This document shows positions 14,142 through 60,626 of a stretch of DNA of 64,000 nt, piece by piece. Within the stretch, counting starts at the first letter, position 1. Every line of letters begins with the position of its first letter. The stretch is taken from NCBI GenBank assembly GCA_963920635.1, contig OY987302.1, positions 35,005,278 to 35,069,277 of the forward strand, written 5' to 3'. A program made the position numbers and the translations under genes. The notes under the pieces are model-generated. The model ran no database searches. It saw only the letters and a list, made by a program, of their open reading frames with translations, and was not told the DNA's origin. Source of the DNA: Pseudeuparius sepicola. Its lineage: Eukaryota > Arthropoda > Insecta > Coleoptera > Anthribidae.

Positions 14142-17130
14142 CTTAATAATAATAATAATAACTTTATTTCCACCGAATGCACAAACATACATTATAGAAA
14201 ACGTCACAAAATTTTTTACTAGTCACAATCGCTGACATAAAAACAACTAATTTACAATACACCATATAACATTCCTAGTTACACATCATTAAAAAATTCC
14301 TTCACAGAATAAAAACATTTCTACTGCAGGTAACACTTCAAAGTCCTTTTAAAAACATTACAATTAATTGATTTTTTTATTCCATCATTTAGTTTGTTAT
14401 ATACTTTTATAGACAGATATCCAACAGAAGTGCGGCCGATCCTCAACCGATATTGGGGTGTCCTAAAATCATTCCTTTGCCTAGTATTAAAACTATGAAT
14501 ATCTCTGTTCTGTTGAAGGTTAGATCTATTAGTGTACGCATAGACACATAACTCATAGATCAAAATACATGCAACTGGCAGCAACTTCAGCGACTTAAAG
14601 TGCTCTCTGCACGATTCTATTTGCGGAATCCCTACCATACATCTTATTATTCTTTTTTGAGAGAGGAATACTTGACCAGCCCCACACAAACTACCCCAAA
14701 AACATACTCCGTACCTAATTCGAGATTCCACGTAACCATGATACATTAACAACAGCTGATCGCGAGTCAGCACAGTTTTTAAACTTCTTACAAGGAAGCA
14801 CAAACTATTTAATTTAGCTGTCAAATTTCTTATTTAATTTAGCTGTCAAATTTCTGCAACGACTTTTCCAATTTAGGCTCTCATCGAGAGTGATCCCCAG
14901 AAATTTTATTTCTTTGTGTCTTTCGAGACGTTCGTTATTAATTAATATATCAAGATTCAGCTCATTCCTGTTGTTATAATTATGAAATCTTAAATAATGC
15001 GTTTTTGAGGTATTAATGTACTTACTGTATACTGTAATTATGAGAAAACCACCCACAAAGTGTTTCCATATTTTGGTTACATTTTAATTCCAGAAACTCT
15101 GAGTGTTTGTTTGACATTATGAGTGAAGCGTCGTCGGCATAGAGAGCCACGGTGCAGTCATCTAATTTAGCACTAATATCATTGATGTATAGGAGAAAGA
15201 GGATCGACCCTAATATGGAGCCCTGCGGTACTCCTAGTTTAACGTTTAATTGGCCTGACATCACAGATCCTCTCTCCCCACCACTGCTATGTGAGATGGC
15301 AACAAATTGTTTTCTGTCCCTCAAGTAGCCGGCAACCCAGCCTAGAGCATTACCCCTGATCCCGCACATTTCTAGTTTATTTAAAAGCTGAGAATGAACG
15401 ACACAGTCGAAAGCGCGACTCAAGTCACAGAAGATGCCCACCGGTTGCTCCCCCGCCTCCACGCATTCGACTACCCTCTCTATGAAGTAGTGGATGGCGG
15501 AACAAGTGGATCGCCCATCACGAAAACCAAATTGATTATCCATGAGTATTTTACGGGAAGCTAAAAAAGCCTGCAAACGCTCCAAATAGCAATACTCAAA
15601 TATCTTTGAGAAAACCGAGAGGAGAGCCACAGGACGGTAATTCTCCCCCTTCTTATAGAGTGGTACAATTTTGCTCTGCTTTAGCCGTTCCGGAAATGCC
15701 CCGGTCGAAAACGATAAGTTTATCAAAAACAACAATGGTGTGGCCAGCACACTGATGCTTTTTTTATTAGAAAACTTGGAACCTCATCATAGCCACATGA
15801 TTTTTTTGGCTTAAGATTTCTGTTAATAAGAGAGACGAGTTCGTCTTCAACGAAGGGAACAAGAAACATTGTGTCGGGGTTTCTGGGTAGCTCGCTGTAG
15901 TAAGGTAGTTGGGGTATTCAGTTAACAACGTTATGCGGCGCCCTCTCGAAAAACATGTTAAAAGGATCTGCGACATCCTGTGGGTTTTCAACAGTCATAC
16001 CGCCTTGGTATAATTTTAAATTTCCACAACTAACCGCTTCCTTATTACTCAAGCTGCTGACAACTTTCCAAGCTGATTTTATTTTGTTTTCAGAACAGTT
16101 AATTTTGCTTTGGTAAAAAGCTCTTTTTGTTTTTGCCACTAAATTTGCATGTTTGCGTTTGTTCCCTGCGTATAAGGATTCCAATTCGGGAAATATTTGT
16201 TTCATATGGAAAAGGTCCTTTAAGTCCTTACTGGATTCTTTTACGGAGTCATTGACCCAATGTTTACTTTGCTTTTTATAGAAAGTTTTCTTTGGAAAGT
16301 TTTTGTTAAAATGCAGCAAAAACTTGTCGATAAAGAACTCATATGCTTCATCTATTTTTTTGCGCGCATACAGGCCTTCCCAGCTCTCCCAATATAAGTT
16401 GTTAATAAATTCTTGAATGTTATTTTCGTGAAAATCACGCCCGCACTCTGTCAGACTCGTAGATCTTTTTTCATATACAATTTTGGAGTTTATGGCCCTA
16501 TGATCAGAAAAAAACACATCCGATACTACACTATCTGACTGGACATTGGAAAATACAAAATCAATTCTGTAGTTATTTCTAGTTGGTCCCGTGTTATGGA
16601 CTTTCAAATTAAATGTTGCCAAAATGTCTCTGATTATATAATCTCCTTCGTCTCTCACAGGATCGACATTGAAATCCCCACACAAAACAATGTTAAAACT
16701 AGGTTTAAACACATAATTTAAAACTGACTGTAGACGAGTACAAAATTGATCTACACTGGTCTTAACCGGTGAACGGTAACACGTCAGCAATACAGTTCTC
16801 TTATTGCCGCACTGAAAGGAAATACCGCAAATCTCGAAATGTTTCTCAATGCAAAAGTGTTCCAATGGTATTTGTTTGGATTGAATCTCTGAAGAGCACC
16901 AAATTCCCACACCGCCTCCCTTCACCTCCCTCCGCGAGAAGGAAGCCCCGTTGTAGAAATTATGAAAGTATATTTGACTTACATCTTGACTCCAAGTCTC
17001 CATGAGACACAAGAACTTACAATGCTGGCGTCCTGAGAGGAATTCAGCTGTTATAAAATCTATTTTTGCAGGCGTTAAACACTGGCAATTTAATGAGATT
17101 AACTCATAGCAAATGGCATATTGATAATTA
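14142..17130 (-). mobile_element. LINE (jockey-superfamily-like), inserted in the capsid-like gene
   Basis: A 3.0 kb element on the minus strand with an (ATT)n-type 3' tail at 14142-14161. It carries an endonuclease, a reverse transcriptase and a long C-terminal region. The 5' end joins capsid-like coding sequence in frame at about 17130, so it is a 5'-truncated insertion. The exact clade was not determined and no target-site duplication was found; a few codons of the capsid gene seem missing at the site. Confidence 0.88.
14321..17120 (-). pseudogene. LINE ORF2: AP-endonuclease and reverse transcriptase, frameshifted
   Basis: The endonuclease part (about 17120-16450) shows LCLMETW, LCGDFNVDP and FFSDHRAI. 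The reverse transcriptase (15750-15022) shows NQFGFRDGRSTCSA, FCDLSRAFDCV, GVPQGSILGSILF and the YADD catalytic box at about 15131-15142. The C-terminal region runs to 14321 with the usual LTRDQLLLMYHGYVESRIRYG pattern. Breaks lie between endonuclease and RT (15750-15990), at about 15040, and at 14815-14855 where a ~21-base tandem duplication shifts the frame. It would nick DNA and prime reverse transcription if intact. Confidence 0.9.
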
Positions 17131-17132
17131 TT

Positions 17133-17610
17133 AAAGAGCCCAAACAAATGTTTGAAAAGTATTCTTACGCTGAATATTCCATCATCGTTCAAGATTGGTG
17201 CATTGTCCTTGGGATAGCTCCAACTTGAAGTTACCAAATACTTGTCATCGTTAGGAGAACAACATAAATCTCACCATTTCCAACTCTTTGCCATTAAGTT
17301 TGTATTAGACAGAGTCAAAGAAAAACATTGCACCATTGTTTACAAGCTTGCAAGTGCCAGTGCCTGACATCTTGTTTATTTTACCTTTTATGAAAATTGC
17401 AGCATCATACTTCAACAACCAAAGATCACCTTGGTTAGTCATTATTTCTACAATGTCATTGCTAGTGAATGACTTTACGAACGGGTAATGGGAGCGTGCT
17501 TCTGAAAGTTGAATAACTTTGGTTTCTGATGTACGTCGAACACTTGATGTGTCAATGACATGACAACTGAGATATTTTAAAAATAAGTGATTTTTGGGTG
17601 TAAGACTCAT
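17133..17610 (-). pseudogene. Major-capsid-like protein, N-terminal part
   Basis: An ATG at 17610 opens MSLTPKNH..., then SNDIVEIMTNQGDLWLL and KLVNNGAMFFFDS, which recall the N-terminal jelly-roll segment of Maverick/adintovirus-type capsids. A stop follows at about 17302, and a further in-family stretch (WSYPKDNAPILNDDGIFSV, then FKHLFGLF) reads in another frame to 17133, where the LINE begins. The gene is therefore broken by at least one frameshift or stop and by the LINE. Confidence 0.58.
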
Positions 17611-21489: not shown

Positions 21490-22757
21490 CTACAGTAGCT
21501 GTTCAAAGAGGCCGCCGTTAACTTCGATGCACAAATTCACTCGGTTAACTAAAGAAGTCTGGATACGTGCAAAAAGTCCATGATTATTCCGGATTTGAAC
21601 AGCTGCACCTTCAATTCGTTCACGTAACTGCTGCTCGTTGTCGATTTCCTGCTCGTACACAATCGCCTTCATGAATCCCCAAATACAAAAATCCATTGGA
21701 TTCAAGTCTGGTGATCGCGGCGGCCATGCAATTGGCCCTCCTCTTCCGATCCAACGGTTGGGGCATTGGTCGTCTAAAAGTGCACGAACAGGTCTCGCAA
21801 AATGGGCTGGTGCACCATCGTGCATAAACCACATGTCATGCAGTACTTGTAGTGGCAAATTATCAAACAAAACATTTGTCAGAAAATACAAGTATCGTTC
21901 AGCGTTTAAATTTTCCGGTAGAATGTATGGTCCAATTAATCGATCTCCATAAACTCCTGCCCAAACATTGATGGAAAACCGACGTTGGAAATTAAACCGC
22001 CGAACAGCATGTGGGTTCTCATCGGACCAAATATGGCTGTTGTGTCTAAAAAAAAACAACAAAAATTAGAAATATTCACAATTTTGGCGAAGGCGTTAGG
22101 ATTGACATAGCCAATTTTATAATAAATAAAAAAGATAATATGGAAGAGAGAAAGCTATAAGTAAGTAAAAATTTACATACGTGTAAACCCCAGCACGTGT
22201 GAAGCAGCATTCGTCTGTCCAAAGAATGTTGAAAACAAAGTTTGGGTCTGGGCGATTCGATCACGTAGCCAAGTGCAGTAGGTCATTCTCACCGGAAAAT
22301 CATTTGCTTCTAATGCTTGGACTTTTGTATGTGATAAGGGTGAAGGCCGTTTTCCCTTAGAATCCTCCATGCCTGTAAATAATTTTATTGTTACATTTTA
22401 AATTTTATGTAGGTATTAGGTGCAAGCAAAGACAATCCCATCACATGGGATAGTCTTTGGTAGAAGTCAGTTTTATTGGTTTTATTTTACTTGCCTTGTT
22501 CTGAGATATTCCCAATCTCCTTGCAATAGCTGTAGTGCTTATGGAAGGTTGCTCGCCCACCCCTTCGAGCTTGCAAAACACCAGTTGTTTCGCATACGTT
22601 GTACAATGTTCACGAAAGTACGTGGGTTAGGCATATTTGCCCTGTTAGGAAAACGAATACGGTATTCTGCTGCAGCTCGATGTGCACTTTCATCGCATCT
22701 CCCGTACATTATAACCATGTCCGTTAACTCGGCGTTCGAATACTCCGGCATTTTCAC
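21490..22757 (-). pseudogene. DD41D (rosa-type) transposase, copy A, three exons, broken
   Basis: Exon 1 (from 22757) starts MKMPEYSNAELTD with the helix-turn-helix region; exon 2 (about 22375-22178) and exon 3 (22055-21490) hold the catalytic core. Visible motifs are FMHDGAPAHF and WPPRSPDLNPMDF; 41 residues separate the second and third Asp, the DD41D spacing. Introns have GTAAAA and GTATGT donors. Lesions relative to copy B: a deletion of over 50 bp in exon 1 and small frameshifts in exon 2. Exon 3 is open. Such enzymes cut and paste DNA at TA. Confidence 0.88.
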
Positions 22758-28609: not shown

Positions 28610-29052
28610 TGGACCAGGGGGGGAGAGCTTGGGGCTTTAGCCCCCCCAAAGATCTGCCGCGTAGTATTTATTTCTAAATAAAATTGATTTGAAAACAATA
28701 GTTTTGCCGTAAATATTACCAAACGATTTTTTAAAATAATTAGCCTCCACTCCAACTTTAAATTCTGATTACTGGTTATGATATATGATAAAAGTTTTTA
28801 GTAGATATTTCTAATAGTGCTTTTCTTCTTTTGTGTTGCATCAGCAACGGCCTTTTTCGGAGGTAAATAAATATGAATAATTTATAAATTTTAAAAACTC
28901 AATATAACTGGCTTTGAAAATTGCAATGTTATAAAAAGTGTAATGAAATTGGTACGTCTCTGGGAGCGTTTACATAAACTATTTGGAAGTACTCTCATCA
29001 GATATACGACTTGTGATAGTTTTACCTCTCTGTGTGGACTATTCTGCTATAA
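28610..29052. repeat. G-rich element end plus inverted flank (left partner of 38946-39430)
   Basis: GACCAGGGGGGGAGAGC...TAGCCCCCCC at about 28610-28650 looks like a G-run element end. The part at about 28915-29038 is the inverse of 38946-39045 and 39390-39425, for example CTCTGGGAGCGTTTACATAA. This places an inverted repeat around the whole 10 kb nest. Confidence 0.7.
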
Positions 29053-30528
29053 CAGATCGCTGGTAAAATAAATTAATAATTTTAGACCAAATAATGTGGG
29101 TTCAAGCAGACAAAAAAAATAAAATAAGAAATAAAATAACCAAATAGTTGATTTTTTGGCAATTTTTGAGCAGTAATTATTACAGTTGCCGCAGATGAAC
29201 AAACCACCACCTGCTTATTTTATTTATCATACAGATACAGTTGCAATTTTTCGTATTACAGTTTTTGTCGAAACAAAAACGCTTAAACTTTGGCGTACAA
29301 TGTGTGGTATGGATTCTTGGGAAGAAAATATATGGGAAGCCAGTTGTCGTTTACTGAAGTCCATCCATAATATCCAGGATCTTCAAGTTGTGACTTCGCA
29401 ACATTACTTGAATATATTTAACTGCTACGGGCACCTGCAACTGCCAATAATTAAACAATCCAATATATAATTTCAAACTAGTAATACCTCAAAAAATGTT
29501 GATAAAAAGCACAATCAGTAGGGGGAAGATCGAAGAAGGTTTATTAGATTTGGTGGCCATTGCGTTTAGTGACTATGGCCACATTTTTATGTTTACAGCT
29601 CTTTGTTTTTGCGTGATTTTAAAAAGTCACGAAACGTATGCACCTATTTACTACTATGCACGTTAAAATCTAAAATATATAAAATAAATAAACATTTCAT
29701 TTCCATAAACAAAATTGTACAAAAATTAGGGCAGACTTTTTCGAAGATGCATCGTTTCACGGGATGCGATACTAGAAGCGCATTTTAGAAAATTAAAAAA
29801 AAAACGCTTTTCAAGTTCTACAGAAGAATATAAATGTGCTTGAAAAATTGTCACAGAAGGTACGAAATATGTTCTTCTATTATATAAGTAAATATAAAAA
29901 TGTAGCCAAGTCACTAAACGATTTACGCCTAGCAATGGCCACCAAATCTTCTTCTTACGAATTTTCCCCTACTAACATTTTTTGAGGTATTACAAGTTTG
30001 AAATTATATATTATATAATCAACATTTTTTGAGGTATTACAAGTTTGAAATTATATATTGGATTGTTTCATTATTGGCAATTGCAGGTGCACGTACAGTT
30101 AAAAAGATGGTATTCAAGTAACGTTGCGAAGTTGCAACTTGAAGATCCTGGATCTTATGGATAGACTTCAGTAAACGACAATTGAATTCGCATATTTTCA
30201 TCTCAAGAATCCATACCAAACATTGTACGCCAAAGCTTAATCCTTTTTGTTCCGACAAAAAGTGTAATGCGAAAAAGTGCAAATTTAATATTATTATAAA
30301 AAATCAATATAAAAAAATGTTTATTTTGCAGTTCATTAAATAAATGGTGACTTTAAACAGATACATAAAATAAGCAGGTGGTTGTTTGTTCATCTGGCAA
30401 CTGTAATTACTGCTCAAAAATTGCCAAAAATCAACTATTTGGTTATTTTATTTCTTATTTTATTTTATTGGTCTGCTTGAACCCACATTATTTGGTCTAA
30501 AATTAATAATTAATTTTACCAGCGATCT
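29053..30528. mobile_element. Foldback element with ~500-600-bp arms
   Basis: The ends AGATCGCTGGTAAAATAA and its complement bound arms (about 29053-29560 and 29930-30528) that pair along most of their length, for example around CATCCATAATATCCAGGATC. The spacer is ~370 bp. There is no protein signature. A ~42-base direct duplication sits at about 29978-30060. Confidence 0.85.
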
Positions 30529-30702
30529 ATTACACCAGTGGCGCAACCAGAAATTATTGTCAGGGGGGGCTGGTTGACAATGTTACTAATATTTTTGTGT
30601 AGAATTACTTAATAATAATAATAATAAAAGTGAGCTGTATAACCTTAATTTGAAAAAATTGAGCATAGTCGAGGGTATGGTCTTTGGCTTTTTTGAGAGA
30701 AC

Positions 30703-30926
30703 AGTTAAATTAACGATTTCGAAAAATACGTTTTTAAAACAATTTATTTTGACAGTTACAACAGGGCAGCGTCTACTGCTACAAGACAAGATAGAACTGA
30801 TTAACAATAGAGCAAAGCTTAAATATATAGGGATACAAAATGCAACTTAGCCTACACGTGCCCGCGCACTCAGCACTTTGTCTGCACTTTAACACAATCA
30901 GGACCATTGTTCATAGCGACGTAACT
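30703..30926 (-). repeat. 3' LTR (224 bp)
   Basis: I see one or two base differences from the 5' LTR (for example CAGCACTTTG here against CAGCAATTTG). Preceded on the coding strand by the polypurine tract. Confidence 0.95.
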
Positions 30927-30940
30927 CCTCCCTCCTTAAG
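30927..30940 (-). promoter_or_regulatory. Polypurine tract
   Basis: CTTAAGGAGGGAGG on the minus strand directly abuts the 3' LTR, the place where plus-strand synthesis is primed in retroelements. Confidence 0.85.
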
Positions 30941-32636
30941 ACGAAAATATCAACCTGGAGGGTTGTTTTTCCGTTTCCTTCTCCACCATTTCAAATTTGA
31001 CTTGTCCTCTTCTTTTCTTGAATTTTCTTTGATATATTTTCCATCCAATATATCCAGTAAGTAATAGAAAAATAATAATGATGCTTGTAGCGAATCCATA
31101 GCTGAGGGCATGTATCTTCTGAATATCGGGGACTTGCAATAGTGTAGACTTTTCCTGAAGCTTGTGAATATTTTCTAAGTTAATAGTTTGGAGTTGAAGT
31201 GGCTTCGCTCGTAGGTAGTTAAAGTTGAGGTCATTTATTCCAATTTCTGGTAAATTAAACGGTTTTCCATTTATTTCTTCATTTTTATTAATAAATTGGA
31301 AATCTTTGACTTTGATTTCACAATTTCCTGGCAAATGTATCAAATTAGGTTCGCTGATAATTTTGATTTCTTCTTTCTTTTGACAATTTGTTGAAATTTT
31401 GAGTGTTTCTTCGGCAGGAATAGCAATAATGTATTCACTGTTGATTGCTTGGATTATTGGGTTTATTATGTTAATTGGTAAACCATGACAAAACTTTCCT
31501 TCGGCTTCCTTTATCATGGAAATTATGCATTCGTTTGAGTGAGGCGTGAGTGAATTTTGACAAATATACATATTTTCAACCTTGGGACATTCCTCGTTCT
31601 GGAACTGTTGTTGGTTCGAGCCAAGTATAAGGTAAGGGTGACTCGGGATAACAATTGAATTTTTAATTGGGATTGGGAACAATCGATATGTTTGAAATTT
31701 TTCGTGTGAAAATATTGGAAAATGAATTGCAAATATAAATTTATCATTATTAAAGTTTACTTGTATTCCAGCGAGTTCATAATAAGAAATTACATTTTTT
31801 AATCTTAAAATGGATTCAATAGAGTATAAATTTTTCAAATATTTAATCATGGAACGTAATTGCAATGCAGAAATTATTGAACTATGTAAAGTATTAAGTT
31901 TTGCGAACATTATCGCGTTTTCCAAATTATCGAGAAAAGTTATGAGATTTTGACAATTAAGAATAGTTTGATCCAAAATGTTTTGTGCTTGTAAATATGC
32001 AGAAATATCGTTAATGGTTTTATTGATATTAACCTCAAAATTTTCTAATTTTTCTTTTATCAAATTTTGATTTGATTGCAAAATTGTTATAGGAGAATTA
32101 TAATTATCAATAAGTTGCTTTGTTAATGAGATTTGTAGAGAAACTTCCTTCGTAAAGGATTGCTGATTATTTTGAAGTGCGTAAATCGCTTTATCATACT
32201 TTTCACCATCGTCAGAATCTAGTGTGCCAAAAAGCCATTTTGAAGCTTTACCTACGATATTTATTAAACCTCTCTTACTTCTATTATGGGGAGTAATATT
32301 ATCTAATTTTCTTTCTACTTCCATTATTAAATATTCTACATGTTGTAGTAGGTTATATAAAACATTAGAATAGGAGTTAGTAGCGATTTCTGATATATTA
32401 TTTTTATCTAAAGATAATTTCATGATGCTATAAAATTTACGCATATTATTTAATTGATTAATTATAGGATTAATTTTAATATAGTGAATAAAAGTGTGTT
32501 TTGTTTCAGTAATTTTTGTATCTCCTAACTGGAAAGGTAGTAAAGGAGTTTTTATAGGTGTAAAAGTCATTTCAGTCGTCGTTGTCAGTGTCAAAACTGG
32601 AGTCAAGATTAATAACGTTGTCGTCAGAAACAGCAT
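30936..32636 (-). CDS. env: Env: baculovirus F-like envelope fusion protein
   Basis: An open frame of 566 codons from the first ATG at 32636; reading can extend to 32666 without ATG. It starts with a hydrophobic, signal-like segment (residues 1-20). A furin-type RSKR lies at ~119-122, directly followed by GLINIVGKASKWLFGTLD, the conserved fusion-peptide region of F-like proteins. A transmembrane segment is at about 515-535 with a basic cytoplasmic tail. Errantiviruses use such proteins to fuse membranes. The start overlaps the end of pol in another frame. I see no break, so this copy appears open throughout; activity is not shown. Confidence 0.93.
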   Translation of the reverse strand: MLFLTTTLLILTPVLTLTTTTEMTFTPIKTPLLPFQLGDTKITETKHTFIHYIKINPIINQLNNMRKFYSIMKLSLDKNNISEIATNSYSNVLYNLLQHVEYLIMEVERKLDNITPHNRSKRGLINIVGKASKWLFGTLDSDDGEKYDKAIYALQNNQQSFTKEVSLQISLTKQLIDNYNSPITILQSNQNLIKEKLENFEVNINKTINDISAYLQAQNILDQTILNCQNLITFLDNLENAIMFAKLNTLHSSIISALQLRSMIKYLKNLYSIESILRLKNVISYYELAGIQVNFNNDKFIFAIHFPIFSHEKFQTYRLFPIPIKNSIVIPSHPYLILGSNQQQFQNEECPKVENMYICQNSLTPHSNECIISMIKEAEGKFCHGLPINIINPIIQAINSEYIIAIPAEETLKISTNCQKKEEIKIISEPNLIHLPGNCEIKVKDFQFINKNEEINGKPFNLPEIGINDLNFNYLRAKPLQLQTINLENIHKLQEKSTLLQVPDIQKIHALSYGFATSIIIIFLLLTGYIGWKIYQRKFKKRRGQVKFEMVEKETEKQPSRLIFSS

Positions 32637-32655
32637 AACTGCAGGAAGGAATTGT
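32637..32655 (-). promoter_or_regulatory. Probable env splice acceptor
   Basis: On the coding strand ATTCCTTCCTGCAG precedes TT-ATG of env, a good pyrimidine tract plus AG (acceptor at 32639). Errantivirus env is made from a spliced RNA, so this site is in the expected place. It also decides the ATG choice. Confidence 0.6.
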
Positions 32656-34575
32656 ATCAATGTCAATATCCTGTAAACAAGGGTTTAAATTAGATTTTGG
32701 GCGTTTTAGTTGCGATTTGTGAATAATTTTGTCATCGGAAGTTTTGACTTTTGTCCCTAAATCTTCCTTAATTTCGATTTTCGTATGTTTTGGTTTGGTT
32801 TTATCCCTTAATGACGCTTTATTTTTCTGGAATTGAACAGTACAAGGCTCGTAATTTTGTGGTTCTTCCCTATCCTTGTTGTGGCTTGTATTTTGTTTAT
32901 GTTTTTCGCTTAGTGAAACCTCATGAATTTTATCAAAAATTATTTTTAATTTGTTTTTTCGCTCATCTATGTACTGGTTTAGTATTATTTCATCTGTGAT
33001 GTCGAATGGGTCGAGGGCACTGGTGTGACCGTTAATAATATCAAAAGGCCTTTGTTTTGTCGTACTATGAACAGAATTATTGTAACCTAATATAGCATAT
33101 TGCATTAATTGTTTTATTTCCGAGTTCGGATGAGTAAGTTTTAGTACGCGTATACTATCAAGTAGCGTATTATGTAATCTTTCTATATTACTATTACTGT
33201 TCGAGTAACCGGGTGTCGTAAAATGTATATTTGCATTATGAAGTTTACAAAAATCAGTAAGAAGACTTGTTTTGAACTCAGTACCGTTATCGCATGTTAT
33301 TGATTTTGGTATTCCAAAGTGTGATACAAAATTAAAAATTCCATCCATTACATCAGTTGAATTACATGATTCTAAAGGATAAGCTTGAGCGTATTTTGAA
33401 AAAACATCAATTATTGTCAAATACTTTCTTCCTAAAATTTGAAAAGTGTCCATATGTATGGATTCAAAAGGTTGTGACGGAGTTGTAGTTAAGGCAAATT
33501 TAATTTTAGGTGGGTTCCTATCATATTTAGCATTACAATATTCGCATCTATTGATATATTCCGTTATGTCATTTTTCATATTGGGCCAATAATATAATTT
33601 TTTCAAAGCTAACAGAGTTTCGTTTATGCCACGATGACATGTCTTTGTTTCATGATGGTATCGTAACAGTTCTTGTTGACGATCCTTTTCAGTTACATCG
33701 GTTAAGAAAATGTTAGAGAAATTAAGTTTATACGCATGATTTTTGAAAGTTTTTGCTAGTAAATTGCAGATTCTCGGTTTCAAATCAATTTCACTCTTTT
33801 GAATATAAATACTGTAGAGTAGTTTCGGATTTATGTATTCCTTGAAAAATTTAATTAATTCATAGGCATAATTTTTCAGTGTTAGGTAGACAGTTAGTCT
33901 AATTTTATTGGGAAAAGGACATGTCTTTATAACATGATATTTTCCAGAGTCTTTTAAAATAAATATAATTTGATTAGTATAAGTGTTTAGACAATTTTCA
34001 GTTATTGGAATGGTTAAAATTGGATCTTCTATTGCAGAATGAACAGTTTCAATTTCATTTCTATTTTTAATAAGTTCTTCAATCTCTCCGGTAGGTTTAA
34101 TTAGAATATCGGATATTATATTTATTTTTGGTTTTGAACTATTTTCATTTACTTCACGATTTTCTTCGGGGAATTCGGCCTCTAAATATTCTCTGATTTC
34201 ATCATTAGTTATAGAGCTATTCAAAAATCTATGAATTTCTTCATCAGTATCACCGGGATTTCCTAAAATTGACTGATTCTCGATAGCGTTAAGGTCATTG
34301 TTATTTCGGCTTTTCTTAACCTTTTCTTTTTGTTCTTTTAAAAATTCGTCTAACTTTAATTCGAATTCTAAATCCGGGTTACTTAATTGAAAATTATTTT
34401 CAGGAATATATTTTACTGTTATCTTGTTTCCGTCAACGGTACGTTCTTTATAAAATTTTATTGGTTCTTCGAAATTAATTGTTCGTTGATCTTTGTTTAG
34501 AGAAATTTTTATGTTTTTTGGTACACCATATATAGGTTCTGGTGGACTTTCATTTGCAGAAAAAATCGGGTTTAC

Positions 34576-35019
34576 TTCTGAAACATCATTATCTATGTAG
34601 CAAATGACTATTTCCGCTTGCACAGATTTAAAAATAAAATTAATCATTTCTTTCATTATATTCCAATCTAATTGGTCAAGACCGCATCCTATCCTTGGCA
34701 TAGCTAAATATTTTATGTCATTTTTGATCACATGACTTCGTAAGTTTTTAAGACAAGTAAATATCTTATAGTAAGTCGGTTTCTCATAAAAGTGTTTCTT
34801 AGTAATTAAATAATATATAAAACGTTTTCTAGTATTTATAACTGTTAATATTCCTACTTCGCCTACTTGTTTGTTTTGTTTCTTTAAATTAGCAACGTTA
34901 TCATACCTTTCTTTAAATTCGGCTGCAATACCAGCGCTCATTTTAAAATCGGACGACACACAATGTGCCAGTGAGTACCTCTCGGGCATCTCAAATAAAT
35001 TTCTTTTTATTTCAACAAC
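34576..35019 (-). other. Macro domain within pol (TARG1/OARD1-like)
   Basis: About 148 residues. The block AHCVSSDFKMSAGIAAEF is the ADP-ribose-binding start of the fold and MPRIGCGLDQLDW is the late loop. The Lys in YLITKKHFYEKPTY and the Asp of GCGLD align with the two residues I recall as catalytic in human TARG1, which removes ADP-ribose from Glu/Asp. The domain follows the RNase H remnant and precedes the integrase. An ADP-ribose hydrolase role is inference; no macro domain is part of standard errantivirus pol as I know it. Confidence 0.85.
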
Positions 35020-36129
35020 ATTACCATTATTTTCATTGTTATCATTATTTTCTATAATTTTCCTAAATTCATAATATTCTTTATCAATATCATAAAATAG
35101 GATATTATTGACATTATCGTCATTTTCACATTGAATACGAGATAATGAATCCGCATTAGTATTTATTTTTCCTTTTTTATGAACTTCATTAGCTTCACTA
35201 ATAACTTCATTTTTAAAATCATCATTATTATCATAAACTTCATAATTTTCGTAACTTCCGTAAAATTCATCTTCAAAGTTTTCAGTATTATTCTTATAAT
35301 TATAACTTATAACTTCGTTATTTTCACTTATAACATCTTCATTATTTATCTTAACTTTAGTCTTATTCTTCCTAACTCTATTTTTATTTTTCCTAACTTT
35401 GTTTTTATTTATTTTAACTTCATTAGTTTCTGTAAAAACTCCATTTATTTCACAAGTTTCACAAAATATATCGTCATTAATATTATCATTATCATTATTA
35501 AAATCTTGAAAATCTAAATATAGCGAATTAATCATATCAGAACCATCTTCATTATTTAAAACTGTGTCCGTTGTTTCTGGAGAATAAGGACTAGTTATGT
35601 TGCGTTCGGGAACAATAGCATTATTATTAAATTTATCTACTGGGATTTTAGTTGAAAGCGCCTCGTGTGCGTTAACTGAAATGGAGTATTGTTTATCATC
35701 TGGTCGCCTATAATAAAAAGGAATTGTTGTTACATGGTTGACAAGAATATCATTTTCGAGGTCAATATGCAATTTTAATTTCTTTAAATCACGTAAGCCT
35801 ATAATGCCATCAAAATAAGGGTGGAAATCAAATAAAATTATCGGAATGACCATATCAGTGTTTAGTTCTTCTGGAGCCGGAATATTGGCTCTGAGTTTAA
35901 TTTCTGTTTCGCCTAAACTCGTTTTGACTTTCGTGGGACAAGTATAAATACAATTTGGAAAATATTTTTCTACGATAGAAGGTCTTAAAATTGAATGAAA
36001 ACAACCTGTATCGATAAGCAATTTCATTTTGGGATTTTTAATTTGAATAGAAGCTAAACTGTTATGTTGTTCCACATAAATTTCGACTATTTCTTTTTCC
36101 TGGTTTATTTCTTCCGTTTGGGAGGATGA

Positions 36130-37547
36130 CTCACCAATGGAAAATTTCCGGAGTTAATTTTTTGAGTTTGAATTTGATTTTGGGGTTCATTCTGAGAAAG
36201 AGTTTGGTCATACGCATCGCGCATTGGCTGTGTTGAATTATTACTCGCGTTTTCATTATTAATTTGATATAGTTCTTCGACTATAGCGTTATTTTGCGGC
36301 TGATAATTATTTCAGGGAAAATTATTCTGTCGTGCTGAAAAGCTTCTGTGTACATTAGAAGGTACACGCGAATTTGTTGACATAGCTTCTGGGTTTCCAA
36401 AATTTGTGTTAGTAAAAGTATTATTTCTAGTCATTTGGGAATTGACTTGCATAGGCTCGTATTGCCTTTGTATATTTTGTCCTGTGGGTCTAAAAACGTT
36501 ACAGAGTGGTCCAAAAACTTGTCTGTTCGTGGGAAAACGTCTCTGTTGGTTATTAAAATTTGGTTGAATGTTAATGGGTTGGCTTGGGAAGTTTGGTCTA
36601 GTTGAAAAATTCTGATTTTGGAAATTATTCCTAAAAGGTTGGTTATTATAACTTTGGAAATTATTTCTAGGGAAATTATTTTGATAACTAGGACGAGGGA
36701 AGTTATTTTGCAAATTGTTCTGATAGTTAGGGCGAGAAAAATTACTTTGTGAGAAATTATTTTGTCTTTGATATGTTCTCTGATTATTTTGTGGAAAACT
36801 TGGAAAATTACTTTGAGAACTACTTTTAAAAATATTTTGGGTATAGTTAAAATTTTCTTCTTGAATGATTAGTGTCATTGCATCTTCGAGAGATACAGGT
36901 TCCTTCAAACGAATGATAGTCTGTAGGGGACCTGTCAAACCTCTAACAAAAGTCCTTAAACATAATTCATCATATTGCCTAACGTAAATTTCTTTAGCGG
37001 CTTGGGTTAAGTATACATCTGAATTCACTTTTTGTCTCAGATTACTCCTCATAACCTGAAGTCGTTTTGCGAAATCTAAAGGAGATTCATTTTTAAATGG
37101 CCTAGCCGTAAATAAGTCCTGCTCTGGGCACTCCAAATTGCGACGATCACCAAAGCATTGATTTAGTGCGTCCTTAATTTTCTGCCACGTATTTAACTCA
37201 TTGCGGCAACCTATCAATAATTCAGCGCGTCCAGTGAGTTTCATCTGAACCGCTCTGACTAAGTAAATTTTTAAAAATTCATCATTTATGCCATTATCAG
37301 TTTCAAAAAGGTAATCACATGACGAGATAAATTTCGGCAAGGAAGTTGCATTGCCGTCAAAATTAGAAATTGTTTCTACATACATCTTAAGCATTGGTAA
37401 GTTAAGTTTTTCATTTGCCATTGTGATTATTTTATTTTTTCTTTCTTCTTTAATAACTTGGTTAACGTCAGATGAACTACTTGGTTCGTCAAAACTTAAA
37501 CTTGAGGAAAATAAACTTGTAATATCCTCAATATCAACGTCACTCAT
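36130..37547 (-). pseudogene. gag: Gag polyprotein with one in-frame stop
   Basis: ATG at 37547 opens 411 codons to a TGA at 36312-36314; the same frame continues open past the stop for ~60 codons through the slippery site. The first ~250 residues look like a capsid-type gag (TARPFKNESPLDFAKRLQVM region, residues ~150-170). The C-terminal part is Asn/Gln/Phe-rich with repeats of the type QNNFPRPSYQNNFPRNN. No CCHC knuckle is visible. The TGA probably is a point mutation, because frame and composition continue across it and the frameshift signal lies beyond it. Confidence 0.85.
36141..36147 (-). promoter_or_regulatory. -1 ribosomal frameshift heptamer A AAT TTT
   Basis: The coding strand reads GG-A-AAT-TTT-CC with the gag frame as A|AAT|TTT, the canonical X XXY YYZ pattern. 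Shifting by -1 here enters the pol frame just before the protease. It is the only such heptamer I noticed in the overlap. Confidence 0.75.
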
Positions 37548-37946: not shown

Positions 37947-37964
37947 GTCCTACCGACTGCGCCA
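37947..37964 (-). promoter_or_regulatory. Primer-binding site, tRNA-Ser type
   Basis: TGGCGCAGTCGGTAGGA on the coding strand directly follows (and overlaps by one base) the 5' LTR. It is complementary to the 3' end of insect tRNA-Ser as I remember it, the primer used by several errantiviruses. Confidence 0.85.
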
Positions 37965-38187
37965 GTTAAATTAACGATTTCGAAAAATACGTTTTTAAAA
38001 CAATTTATTTTGACAGTTACAACAGGGCAGCGTCTACTGCTACAAGACAAGATAGAACTGATTAACAATAGAGCAAAGCTTAAATATATAGGGATACAAA
38101 ATGCAACTTAGCCTACACGTGCCCGCGCACTCAGCAATTTGTCTGCACTTTAACACAATCAGGACCATTGTTCATAGCGACGTAACT
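37964..38187 (-). repeat. 5' LTR (224 bp)
   Basis: Nearly identical to the 3' LTR; ends AGTTA/TAACT. It is followed on the plus strand by the GAAC duplication. Confidence 0.95.
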
Positions 38188-38945
38188 GAACAAAGTAATT
38201 ACCTAGCTTTTCAATATCAATCGGTTTGGAGTGATAAATACAGCGTACCTACAGGGTCGTACATACACTTTGTCGATGGGAAAAAGTAGTAAAATTTTTA
38301 TTGTCAAGAATTGCGCCGCAGGCGAAAATTTTCAAATTTTCAAAGTCAAACATTTTAATGAACTAAAAATAATTAATGAACCTAATATTATCAAAACATA
38401 TTATGCAAGTCAACTGATTGTATTTTTTTCTTTTTTAACTATCGAACCATAATAATAATTTAACTATGCAGTAAATGTAAGAAGTATTAGGTACTCTTTT
38501 TTTCTTTTACATAAAAGCCCGAGAGAGAATTCCTTGAATGATGTGGAAGTAAAAATATAAGTTAGTGCCTATAAATTTATTGCCACATCCTATAAAGTAA
38601 CACGTCCCCTCAAAGGGCCAAATGTAGAATATAGATAGGAATCTACAATCTAATTTTAAATTTATTTCCTGGTGGGTTCATAATGATTATTGATTTTTAA
38701 AGTTGGAATTAAAAGCAGGTGTTCGTTTCTTAAAATGCGCCGCAGGCGAAATTTTTTAGAAATTTTAAGGACAGATAATTTAACTGAGGCATTGGAAATT
38801 GTAAAGTTACATCACCATGATATGTTTTCTCTGTAGTATTGTTTTTATCTAGCAGTGTTTAGCGCTTTTTTGCCTGGTTGGTACGAGCTCGGGGGGGGGG
38901 GGGGGGCTGCAGCCCGGCAGCCCCCCCCCCCTCGTTGCGCCACTG

Positions 38946-42726: not shown

Positions 42727-42844
42727 ATTTTATTTTTTATTTTTTTGGACAGAGCGCATCAAAATACATAAGATACAATTTGTTTCATCCAGTTACAATT
42801 GAATGCAAGCTCGAGGGGTCTTTTTTTCGTAATTTAATTAGACT

Positions 42845-43630
42845 ATTAACAATTTCCATCCACAGATACAATTTACAATGGAAACAGAATCTGATGATCA
42901 ATTCCCGTTTTTGGATGTTTTGGTTGTCAGAGATCATGTAGGTACATTGTCCACCAACTGGTACACCAAAACAACAAGCTCAGGGAGAGTGCTGAATTAT
43001 TTGTCCGGTCATCCACAGTCACATAAAGTTAGCACTATTAAAAATTTAATACGTAGATCAGCCTCTCTCAGCAGTCCTCATTTTCACAAACAAAACAAAG
43101 AAAAAATAAAATCTATTTTAAAATTAAACAACTATCCATTATATTTTAAGTTTCCATATATCCGCAATTTGTCAGAAAAAATAGAAAAGGTGTTTAAATC
43201 TAGTCACCCTCTTTATCCTGTCAGACAGGTCAAATCTATATTATCATGTTTAAAAGACAAAACACCTCACATGGTCAATTCCAATTTAGTGCATCAAATC
43301 AATTGCAAAAATTGCAATAAGTGTTACATTGGTATTACAAAACAGTATTTGAAAAATCGAGTCTACCAACATCAATATAATTGTCGTGAGAGAAAAAAAA
43401 ACAAATTTGAAAAAACTGCCTTAGCACAGCACCATTTTTTGACAAAACATGATTTTGACTTTGATGAAGTAAAGATTCTAGACAGAGAGCCATATTATTA
43501 TAAAAGAACTATTAGTGAGATGATTCACATATCTACAAAGTCAACGGTGAATTTTAGAACTGATGTAGCAGGTCTAAGTAATATTTATAAAGGCCTGTTA
43601 ACGATATATACATCAAATTTGCAAAAGTAA
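42845..43630 (+). CDS. Penelope RT C-terminus plus GIY-YIG endonuclease (partial)
   Basis: Open for 262 codons from INNFHPQIQF (42845); first ATG at 42878. FPFLDVLVVRD and TNWYTKTTSSGRVLNYLSGH match the thumb region after the RT palm. The endonuclease then shows CKNCNKCYIGITKQYLKNR (GIY-YIG core with the Cys pair before it), a H..H region and EMIHI with the metal-binding Glu near the end. Penelope elements prime reverse transcription with this enzyme. RT palm and fingers are missing through 5' truncation, so it is inactive, though the remaining frame is intact. Confidence 0.92.
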   Translation: MNNFHPQIQFTMETESDDQFPFLDVLVVRDHVGTLSTNWYTKTTSSGRVLNYLSGHPQSHKVSTIKNLIRRSASLSSPHFHKQNKEKIKSILKLNNYPLYFKFPYIRNLSEKIEKVFKSSHPLYPVRQVKSILSCLKDKTPHMVNSNLVHQINCKNCNKCYIGITKQYLKNRVYQHQYNCRERKKNKFEKTALAQHHFLTKHDFDFDEVKILDREPYYYKRTISEMIHISTKSTVNFRTDVAGLSNIYKGLLTIYTSNLQK

Positions 43631-47700: not shown

Positions 47701-47825
47701 CGCCGTACTGGTGAAGATAAGTGTGCCATGGAAAAGAAAATCTTATTGACAGTTAATAATACAATAATCTGTCATCCAGTAGATGAACGTAGCAGCGCCG
47801 CAGTTTGTCTTTGTTAATAATTAAA

Positions 47826-48868
47826 ATGCCGTTCCAATTTACAAATGAAGAGCAGGCTGACAGCCAGAGAATACCGGAGGCGATTTCCAAATAGGCGCCA
47901 TCCGCGTCCCTCGGTGTTTGTTAACATGCACCGGCAATTCAGAACTCGCGGTCTGAGAACTAGAATCGTCGAACGAGGAAATGAAAACAATATCCAACAA
48001 GTCAGACGCAACAATGAGATTCTTCGTGAATTCGATAGGAATCCTACAACAAGTAGCAGAAGACTGTCAGTGGCCCTACGTGTTTCAAAGTCTGCAATTT
48101 TGCGAGCTTTAAAAAGAGATCACAGGCATGCGTATCATCTACAACCCGTACAAGGTTTAAGGCCCGGTGATGCAGAAAGAAGATTAGTGTTTTGCCGATG
48201 GATTTTGGAGTCAATTGAAGGAAATAGACAATTTTTAAATAACATTTTATGGACGGACGAGTCGTGTTTTACTCGTCGTGGAGTATTAGTAAACTTTCAT
48301 AATCAGCATATTTGGGCACAAGAAAACCCACATGCAATCCGGCCAAGAAATTTTCAGGTCGAATTTAGTGTCAATGTTTGGATTGGACTGTACAACCATC
48401 ATCTGTTTGAACCCTTTTTTTGCCACAGCGAGTGAATGGTGACAATTTTTTGGAGTTTTTAGTAGCTGAGCATAATAATATGTGGGAAGACATTCCTTTA
48501 AACTTAAGATTGTTGGCTTGGTTCCAACTTGACGGCTGTCCTGCACATTTTCACCGAAATGTGAGGAACTGGTTAAATAATAACTTTCCAAATAGGTGGA
48601 TCGGACGAGGGGGACCGGTCGCTTGGCCACCACGTTCTCCGGACTAACACCTCTGGACTTCTTCGTATGGGGATTTTTAAAAGAACAAGTCTATGCGACT
48701 CCTGTAGAAACAAGGGAACAACTTATTGATCGTATCAGAAATGCGTGCGATGAATTGAGAAATGGCAATTTAATCGATGCTGTTCAATCCGTTAGGCGTC
48801 GAAGTGAATTATGTGTGCAACAGAATGGATCACATTTTGAACAATTGTTGAATGTTGTACAAATTTAG
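47826..48868 (+). pseudogene. DD41D transposase, main copy
   Basis: ATG at 47826 gives MPFQFTNEEQAD, then an N-terminal segment is missing and reading resumes one frame over in LTAREYRRRFPNR (from ~47857). First Asp in LWTDESCFTRRG, second in QLDGCPAHF, third in TPLDFFVWG; counting across the break gives 41 residues between the last two. Frameshifts occur in a T-run at about 48418 and near 48642. No introns are seen, unlike copies A and B. It ends with HFEQLL... at 48868. Confidence 0.9.
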
Positions 48869-59044: not shown

Positions 59045-60250
59045 ATAGTCCATAACAAAAAGTTATCTAAATTAAATGTTCAAAGTGCTGTCCGTTATTT
59101 CGTAAACACTAGTATAGCCTATTTTCAAATTCCCTTCTTACATTCTGGAAAACTTGTCTAGGAATTGTTCTACATTTTGTATTGATTCGTTGACGAAGAT
59201 CTTCAATAGATTTGGGCTGGGTTTTATAAATAACACTTTTTTAAATAACCCCAAAGAAAAAATCTAAGGGACTTAGATCTGGGGATCGTGTAGGCTATTC
59301 TACGGGTCCTCTTCTTCCAATCCAGCGCATTGGAAATTCTCGATATAAGAACTGCCTAACTGGTAGAACGTAGTGTGGGGGTGCTCCAGCCTGTTGAAAA
59401 TGGATTTTGTTCTCATCGAGGTTTAAGTTCACATGGCTGCCTTCTTGGGTTTCTGTTTCCTCCGTAGTAAGAGGGTTAATAGTCGTTTCTAATCAATGCA
59501 AATAGAACTCGCCCTTTAGATTGCCTGGTTTAAATATTGGCCCGATGACCTTGTCTCCTAGAATACCTGCCCATACGTCTGTGCACTCTAAGCTGACACG
59601 CGAGAACCTCAGTCTAAGTGCCACACAATAAGCTGCTTATGGATCGCTGGCGCTTAGACTGAGGTTTTCGCGTGTCAGTTTAGATTGCACGAACTGTACA
59701 TTAAGTTTTTCGGGATACTGGGTATTACCTTCTGTGAAGACATGCGGATTTTCGTCACTCAAATATCAACAATAATTGTGCTTGTTAACAAAACTGTTGA
59801 GAAATAAACTACATTCGTCGCTGAAACAGATATTTTTGAGCAATTTGAAATCATTGGTAATTTTATCTGTCATGTCTTCGCAAAACTGAACACTACGGCC
59901 GGGATCGTCTTCCATAAGTTCCTGATGGATCTGAATTTTGTGGGGATGAAATTTGTGCAATTTTAAAACTTTTCGCACTGACTGATAAGAAAGTCCAGTT
60001 GCAGCTGCTGTCTGACGAATGTAGGTAGTAGGATTCATTGCAAAATGACCCAGGACTTCGATCTGGGCGTTTTCTTGAAGTACCCTGGACTCTGTCCTTT
60101 TCTTGTTTTCTACAGATCCTGTTATTTTCAACTTTATGACCAGTTTTCGGATGTACGTGTGGCTAACATATCTTTCTGGATATCTTGCATTAAAAGTATT
60201 AGCTGTTCTCAATGCACATTTAGCTTCTAGCCCGAAGATAAAAATCATTT
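59045..60250 (-). pseudogene. DD41D transposase, catalytically dead
   Basis: The N-terminal part is open for 160 codons (60248-59766) with a helix-turn-helix region (LSYQSVRKVLKLHKFHP) and the first Asp in ICFSDECS. The middle is split by the hairpin MITE at 59576-59703. The second catalytic Asp is Ala (FQQAGAPPHY near 59390), and a Trp before SPDLSPLDF is TAG. The spacing to the third Asp is 41 residues. It ends in NNGQHFEHLI near 59070. Confidence 0.85.
59576..59703. mobile_element. ~122-bp hairpin MITE, copy 2
   Basis: Same hairpin as at 9731-9856. TAC on each side; removing the element with one TAC rejoins the transposase coding sequence at AAT|GTA|TGGGC, which supports a 3-bp duplication. 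Confidence 0.87.
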
Positions 60251-60626
60251 CAACCCTTTAGGCTACAGTGTAAACCATGATAACAGGAAAATATTGAAGA
60301 TACTTTGGCAAAATCTACTATGAAAATGAAGGCGAGTCCCAAAGTAAATTTATTTTATACCCACTATATGGAAGGATCCAGGTAAATTGGCATATAGTAT
60401 AATTATTTATCAAGTAGGTATTGTCTACCTAATTTAACCCTTCTAGCATCGACTGTAATTAATAAGACTTCTCACGGCTATAGCTGCATGTCCTGGAAAA
60501 CAGATGGAGCCTATGGTCAACAATGTATCTTGCATTGTATTTTGTATCCGGGAAGCGCATGGTGAGCCAGAGAACTGTCAAACATGACAGCCATGAGCAG
60601 TCTTTATTAATACGTCAGTCAACGCT

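Follow-up and report, generated by a model that had tools for sequence, protein, structure and literature searches.

A recently integrated, errantivirus-like provirus in the beetle Pseudeuparius sepicola carries a TARG1-type macro domain inside its pol reading frame, between an RNase H tail and the bridge-integrase region. Computation directly shows the domain with its fold and its conserved Lys and Asp, along with the structure of the provirus, its open pol frame, the absence of reverse transcriptase (RT) and the TARG1-type domains in a few other Ty3-type pol proteins. We hold it an even call whether the domain is, as predicted, a catalytically competent mono-ADP-ribosyl hydrolase that undoes a host PARP-type response.

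Results

A young errantivirus-type provirus in the window

The window (the whole 64,000-nucleotide stretch analysed) contains a minus-strand insertion with an LTR at both ends and gag, pol and env inside (Table 1). An F-type env downstream of pol and LTRs with a 4-bp target duplication are both errantivirus traits; a 4-bp duplication is typical of errantiviruses. The insertion is an errantivirus-type provirus. The LTR mismatch (1 of 224 positions) and the GAAC duplication indicate that the macro-bearing, RT-less form itself integrated recently.

Table 1. Features of the provirus and its pol frame, in window coordinates
Feature	Position	Strand	Evidence or remark
Target-site duplication GAAC, one side	30699..30702	.	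directly outside LTR
3' LTR, 224 nt	30703..30926	-	224/224 aligned to the other LTR, single mismatch at 30876
Polypurine tract, just inside 3' LTR	30927..30940	-	plus-strand pyrimidine run adjoining LTR, by eye
env ORF, F-type envelope	30936..32684	-	Pfam Baculo_F E 4.9e-16
pol ORF, 1193 codons, open	32572..36153	-	no RT domain found
Integrase catalytic core	33205..33477	-	Pfam rve E 2.4e-10
Integrase H2C2 zinc-binding domain	33532..33687	-	Pfam E 9.8e-15
Errantivirus bridge domain, pol residues 702-835	33649..34050	-	predicted macro-like fold, no catalytic residues
Inserted segment with macro domain, pol residues about 341-619	34297..35133	-	comparison with P0144-P0153
TARG1-type macro domain, pol residues 379-526 (148 residues)	34576..35019	-	
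RNase H tail (its last 17 residues), pol residues 323-339	35137..35187	-	
N/D/E/K-rich stretch replacing RT-RNase H, pol residues about 181-322	35188..35613	-	
Retropepsin part, pol residues about 25-180	35614..36081	-	54% identity to P0144 over 151 residues
gag ORF, 415 codons	36312..37559	-	Pfam Ty3_capsid E 1e-4, below family cut-off
5' LTR, 224 nt	37964..38187	-	pairs with LTR 30703..30926
Target-site duplication GAAC, other side	38188..38191	.	directly outside LTR

Other repeats share the window. A large imperfect inverted repeat with four arm pairs (84-95% complementary; positions 29044-30538) adjoins the provirus and is foldback-element-like. By eye, we also observed ORFs resembling a non-LTR retrotransposon endonuclease and RT (15022-17270, minus strand), an ORF resembling the end of a Penelope-like element with a GIY-YIG motif (42842-43630, plus strand), and ORFs like fragments of Tc1/mariner-type transposases (21490-22065, minus; 47821-48435, plus; 59766-60257, minus).

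The pol frame lacks reverse transcriptase

An earlier note on this DNA described retropepsin, an RNase H tail, a macro domain of ~148 residues and integrase in a single open frame, and our analysis confirmed this arrangement. The retropepsin part matched Pfam RVP at E 0.15 only. The RNase H tail scored 20.7 bits by HMM, against a shuffle maximum of 7.5. The N/D/E/K-rich stretch between them contains a 21-nt tandem repeat (35342-35424) and matched no Pfam family over cut-off. A Pfam search of pol in the window copy found neither RVT_1 nor an RNase H family, leaving only the 17-residue tail.

The window copy is thus a deleted, errantivirus-derived element and not a complete errantivirus. Without RT in its pol, it cannot reverse transcribe itself and is not autonomous; given its near-identical LTRs and target duplication, it was probably copied with the enzyme of another element. 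All six relatives inspected (P0148, P0152, P0163, P0176, P0159 and P0251) also lack RT, and the macro domain too. In three of them (P0152, P0163 and P0176), the remaining pol resumes at the RNase H tail after the deletion, as in the window, with no macro domain. Judged from these sequences, RT deletions of this kind are not unusual among the relatives.

The 120 listed integrase relatives carry no recognisable macro domain

We used the bridge and integrase as a query, scoring 7995 candidates and obtaining 182 matches, 120 of which were listed. The matches include a 297-type pol of Helicoverpa (P0209), which places the element among errantivirus kin; source names among the relatives include Brassicogethes and Callosobruchus, which point to a beetle host. 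Like the pol of errantiviruses (insect endogenous retroviruses, Metaviridae), the window pol has a protease, an RNase H tail and a bridge and integrase, these last being 51-59% identical to the eight nearest pols from this search. The F-type env and 4-bp duplication extend the likeness. Unlike errantivirus pol, it has no RT and gains a macro segment of about 279 residues. The missing RT, which the earlier note did not mention, makes the element non-autonomous.

A macro HMM run with default filters up to E 10 matched none of the 120 listed nearest relatives, and an unfiltered macro search of the same 120 pols gave a best value of only E 0.048 (P0173). The view that standard errantivirus pol has no macro domain agrees with this result (0 recognisable among 120 listed of 182). 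The claim that a lineage took up the domain does not: we saw a single copy, and the 120 nearest listed relatives lack the domain.

The macro domain is TARG1-type with conserved catalytic residues

Compared with relatives, the window pol contains an insert of about 279 residues between the RNase H tail and the stretch that directly continues this tail in relatives, which begins in the window pol only at residue 620. The insert thus lies at the RNase H end, upstream of the bridge and integrase. BLAST hinted at another, degenerate RNase H tail following the macro domain, in which case a duplication would flank the insert; we rejected this tail (HMM score 2.4 bits, below the best shuffles, which reached up to 7.0).

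The domain is nearest in sequence and fold to TARG1, and not to other macro domains. Lys 84 and Asp 125 of TARG1, the latter of which we take to be catalytic, have their counterparts in the domain (Lys 74 and Asp 115 of P0001 in the alignment). Sequence and fold matches thus bear out the assignment to the TARG1 subfamily, and the alignment bears out the retention of the putative catalytic pair. All 16 alignment-invariant residues are kept, and the domain is strongly diverged from every known relative (best 53-54% identity). Passages of PMC8501950 describe Lys 84 of TARG1 as catalytic and needed for activity. From its residues and fold, the window domain should be an active mono-ADP-ribosyl hydrolase. 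The earlier note read the kept Lys and Asp as a sign of selection; in a single young copy, they argue for recent function of the domain and not, alone, for selection within the element.

A few other retroelement proteins carry macro domains

The macro part used as a query against pol-length proteins gave 22 matches among 71 candidates. P0020, P0022 and P0015 each unite RT, integrase and a macro domain in one protein; the macro domain lies between RNase H and integrase in P0020 and P0022, and after integrase in P0015. In P0014, RNase H is followed by a macro domain, where the protein ends. P0023, a Frankliniella occidentalis gene model, joins Retrotrans_gag and Ig domains to a partial macro domain that stops before the Gly-Cys-Gly loop. 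Lys and Asp are kept in P0020, P0014 and P0015; P0022 keeps both and has lost the Gly-Cys-Gly loop. The earlier note counted a junction confined to one copy, unshared by related elements, as evidence against its reading. The results go halfway towards this: the junction is absent from close kin, but the distant P0020 and P0022 have a macro domain where RNase H meets integrase. These similar domains in a few distant retroelements suggest that such elements may face an ADP-ribose-based host defence.

The remaining 17 of the 22 matches have no retroelement family in precomputed Pfam annotation; among them are several long proteins from insects that include TARG1-type domains. In the insect host proteins P0002, P0003 and P0005, one good TARG1-type macro domain is followed by weak macro matches resembling tandem copies. 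By eye, P0024 (209 residues) resembles a TARG1-type macro domain with a bZIP segment in front of it.

An RT tree was built from 50 of 106 usable rows together with P0015, P0020 and P0022 (P0014 was too short). P0022 fell outside the 50 sampled errantivirus pols (100/99), but was joined to the long-branch P0020, and the program warns of long branches.

The donor may be a host, a virus or another element

The earlier note proposed a host hydrolase as the source. Among individual sequences, a host protein of the beetle Tenebrio matches best (53%), yet the trees give no support to a beetle host origin. In a tree of 93 domains (143 rows less 50 from vertebrates and Schistocerca), the window domain lies outside the 25-row group that holds insect proteins. 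In a smaller tree of 46 hand-picked rows, without P0020 and P0022, grouping the window domain with five beetle proteins was not rejected (AU P = 0.163), and grouping it with 16 insect rows was weakly rejected (P = 0.036). P0015 falls among fly TARG1 proteins in the 93-domain tree, and the retroelement macro domains lie apart from each other, which suits several captures; the trees have few columns and leave many forks open, so that their support for separate captures is low.

A structure search of viral models (BFVD) with the window domain gave 106 matches at E 0.001 or less. Among the 50 shown, Kadipiro virus VP8 ranked first (41% identical), and the others include thrips flavi-, virga- and negev-like viruses, an iridescent virus and an entomopoxvirus. 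TARG1-like macro domains are present in many models of insect-associated viruses of many kinds, as far as predicted structures indicate. An IMG/VR scan with the window macro domain found no relative, nor did one with the P0022 domain. A 44-row alignment retrieved 122 IMG/VR relatives, of which 80 were kept; none of the 80 had a tblastn match to the window integrase piece or the P0144 RT piece. A host, a virus and another element all remain as candidate donors.

The bridge may be a macro-like fold

Structure prediction points to a possible macro-like fold, lacking catalytic residues, in the bridge that adjoins integrase. Similarity to macro domains by sequence profile was not significant (hhalign score 18.0, reached by 3 of 200 column shuffles; reversed profile 19.1). 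The best macro match falls in the bridge for 26 of 80 pols, a level that 14 of 100 shuffled models reach (reversed model, 23 of 68). About nine pols have weak bridge matches whose register agrees with the structure alignment, macro position about 136 falling on bridge position about 109. We did not count them as homology because a chance match would recur across homologous pols, and shuffled models perform equally well.

In a broader scenario, which we regard as rather unlikely, the gypsy/errantivirus branch has long had a macro slot where RNase H meets integrase: the bridge would be a macro domain without its first helices and catalytic site, P0022 would hold a recognisable, eroded TARG1-type domain in this slot, and the window copy would have added a fresh, intact one. 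If so, the handling of ADP-ribose during integration would date back to the early history of errantiviruses. A bridge that is a worn macro fold would give a first idea of the identity of this conserved, unannotated domain.

Discussion

The window domain differs from TARG1 (OARD1, C6orf130) in its setting: TARG1 occurs on its own or within a long host protein, whereas the window domain is embedded in a retroelement pol. It falls under the family cut-off of DarG, a bacterial antitoxin. Kadipiro virus VP8 and the proteins of thrips virga-like and other insect-associated RNA and DNA viruses have the same fold, but these viruses are not reverse-transcribing. The fish epsilon-like endogenous retroviruses are alike in having a macro domain within a retroviral genome. 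As cited in PMC4977317 (Basta et al. 2009), these vertebrate retroviruses carry macro domain proteins as additional open reading frames. In the open-access literature searched, no paper was found to describe a macro domain inside the pol of an errantivirus or Ty3-type element; PMC12440569 and PMC12992720 contain no word beginning with 'macro'. A macro domain in a retroviral genome thus has a precedent in fish, and its placement inside an errantivirus or Ty3-type pol has none among the reports found.

The evidence for an ADP-ribose eraser includes the TARG1 fold and active site, the recent integration of the macro-bearing form and the macro domains of many insect-associated viruses. It also includes the macro domains that the 22 matches revealed in three further pols with integrase and in one protein with RNase H. 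Against it stand the absence of the domain from all 120 listed nearest relatives, the single copy and the defective, RT-less element. The same absence fits a reading that we consider less probable than the eraser, and still serious: an RT-deleted, defective copy gained a TARG1 piece by template switching during reverse transcription and integrated before decay, the piece being useless to the element. RT is gone here, RT-less pols without the domain occur (the six inspected above), and the closest single match is a beetle host protein; moreover, the insertion is young, so its open frame requires no selection after insertion. That frame nevertheless runs open for 1193 codons through both junctions, and strong divergence with 16 invariant residues kept would be odd for a fresh, unselected capture. 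A domain of this kind also stands at this junction in other pols.

Alternatively, the domain could recognise ADP-ribose on chromatin or nicked DNA and thereby direct or aid integration by the integrase fused to it. Its position would suit this role: here it precedes the bridge and integrase in one frame, in P0020 and P0022 it lies where RNase H meets integrase, and in P0015 it follows integrase. P0022, with its fold retained and active-site loop lost, and the possible macro-like bridge would suit such a reader. A pure reader would not need the Lys and Asp that are kept in the window, P0020, P0014 and P0015, and we find this explanation improbable. An assembly artefact, or a host gene adjoining a retroelement, is very improbable: the domain lies in an open frame between protease and integrase, within two LTRs and a target-site duplication, and P0015, P0020 and P0022 are each one protein with RT, integrase and macro domain.

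If the domain is an eraser, we infer that it would be made within Gag-Pol and enter the particle alongside integrase. Passages of PMC8053099 and PMC8501950 describe TARG1 as stripping ADP-ribose from protein Asp/Glu, from DNA thymidine, and from DNA or RNA that carries it on a 5' or 3' phosphate. In the particle, the domain could clear ADP-ribose from the 5' or 3' phosphates at the ends of viral RNA or cDNA; Gag, integrase or chromatin proteins are alternative putative substrates. A host PARP-type response would thereby be undone between entry and integration. Ty3-type elements would have captured TARG1-type domains more than once, and the window copy would have lost RT before or together with capture and moved using an enzyme supplied in trans.

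Macro domains are countermeasures of several RNA viruses to PARP-type defence. An intact macro domain in an insect reverse-transcribing pol, with Ty3-type counterparts, would extend the PARP conflict to retroelements. Whether insects tag retroelement RNA, cDNA or particles with ADP-ribose would then become a testable question.
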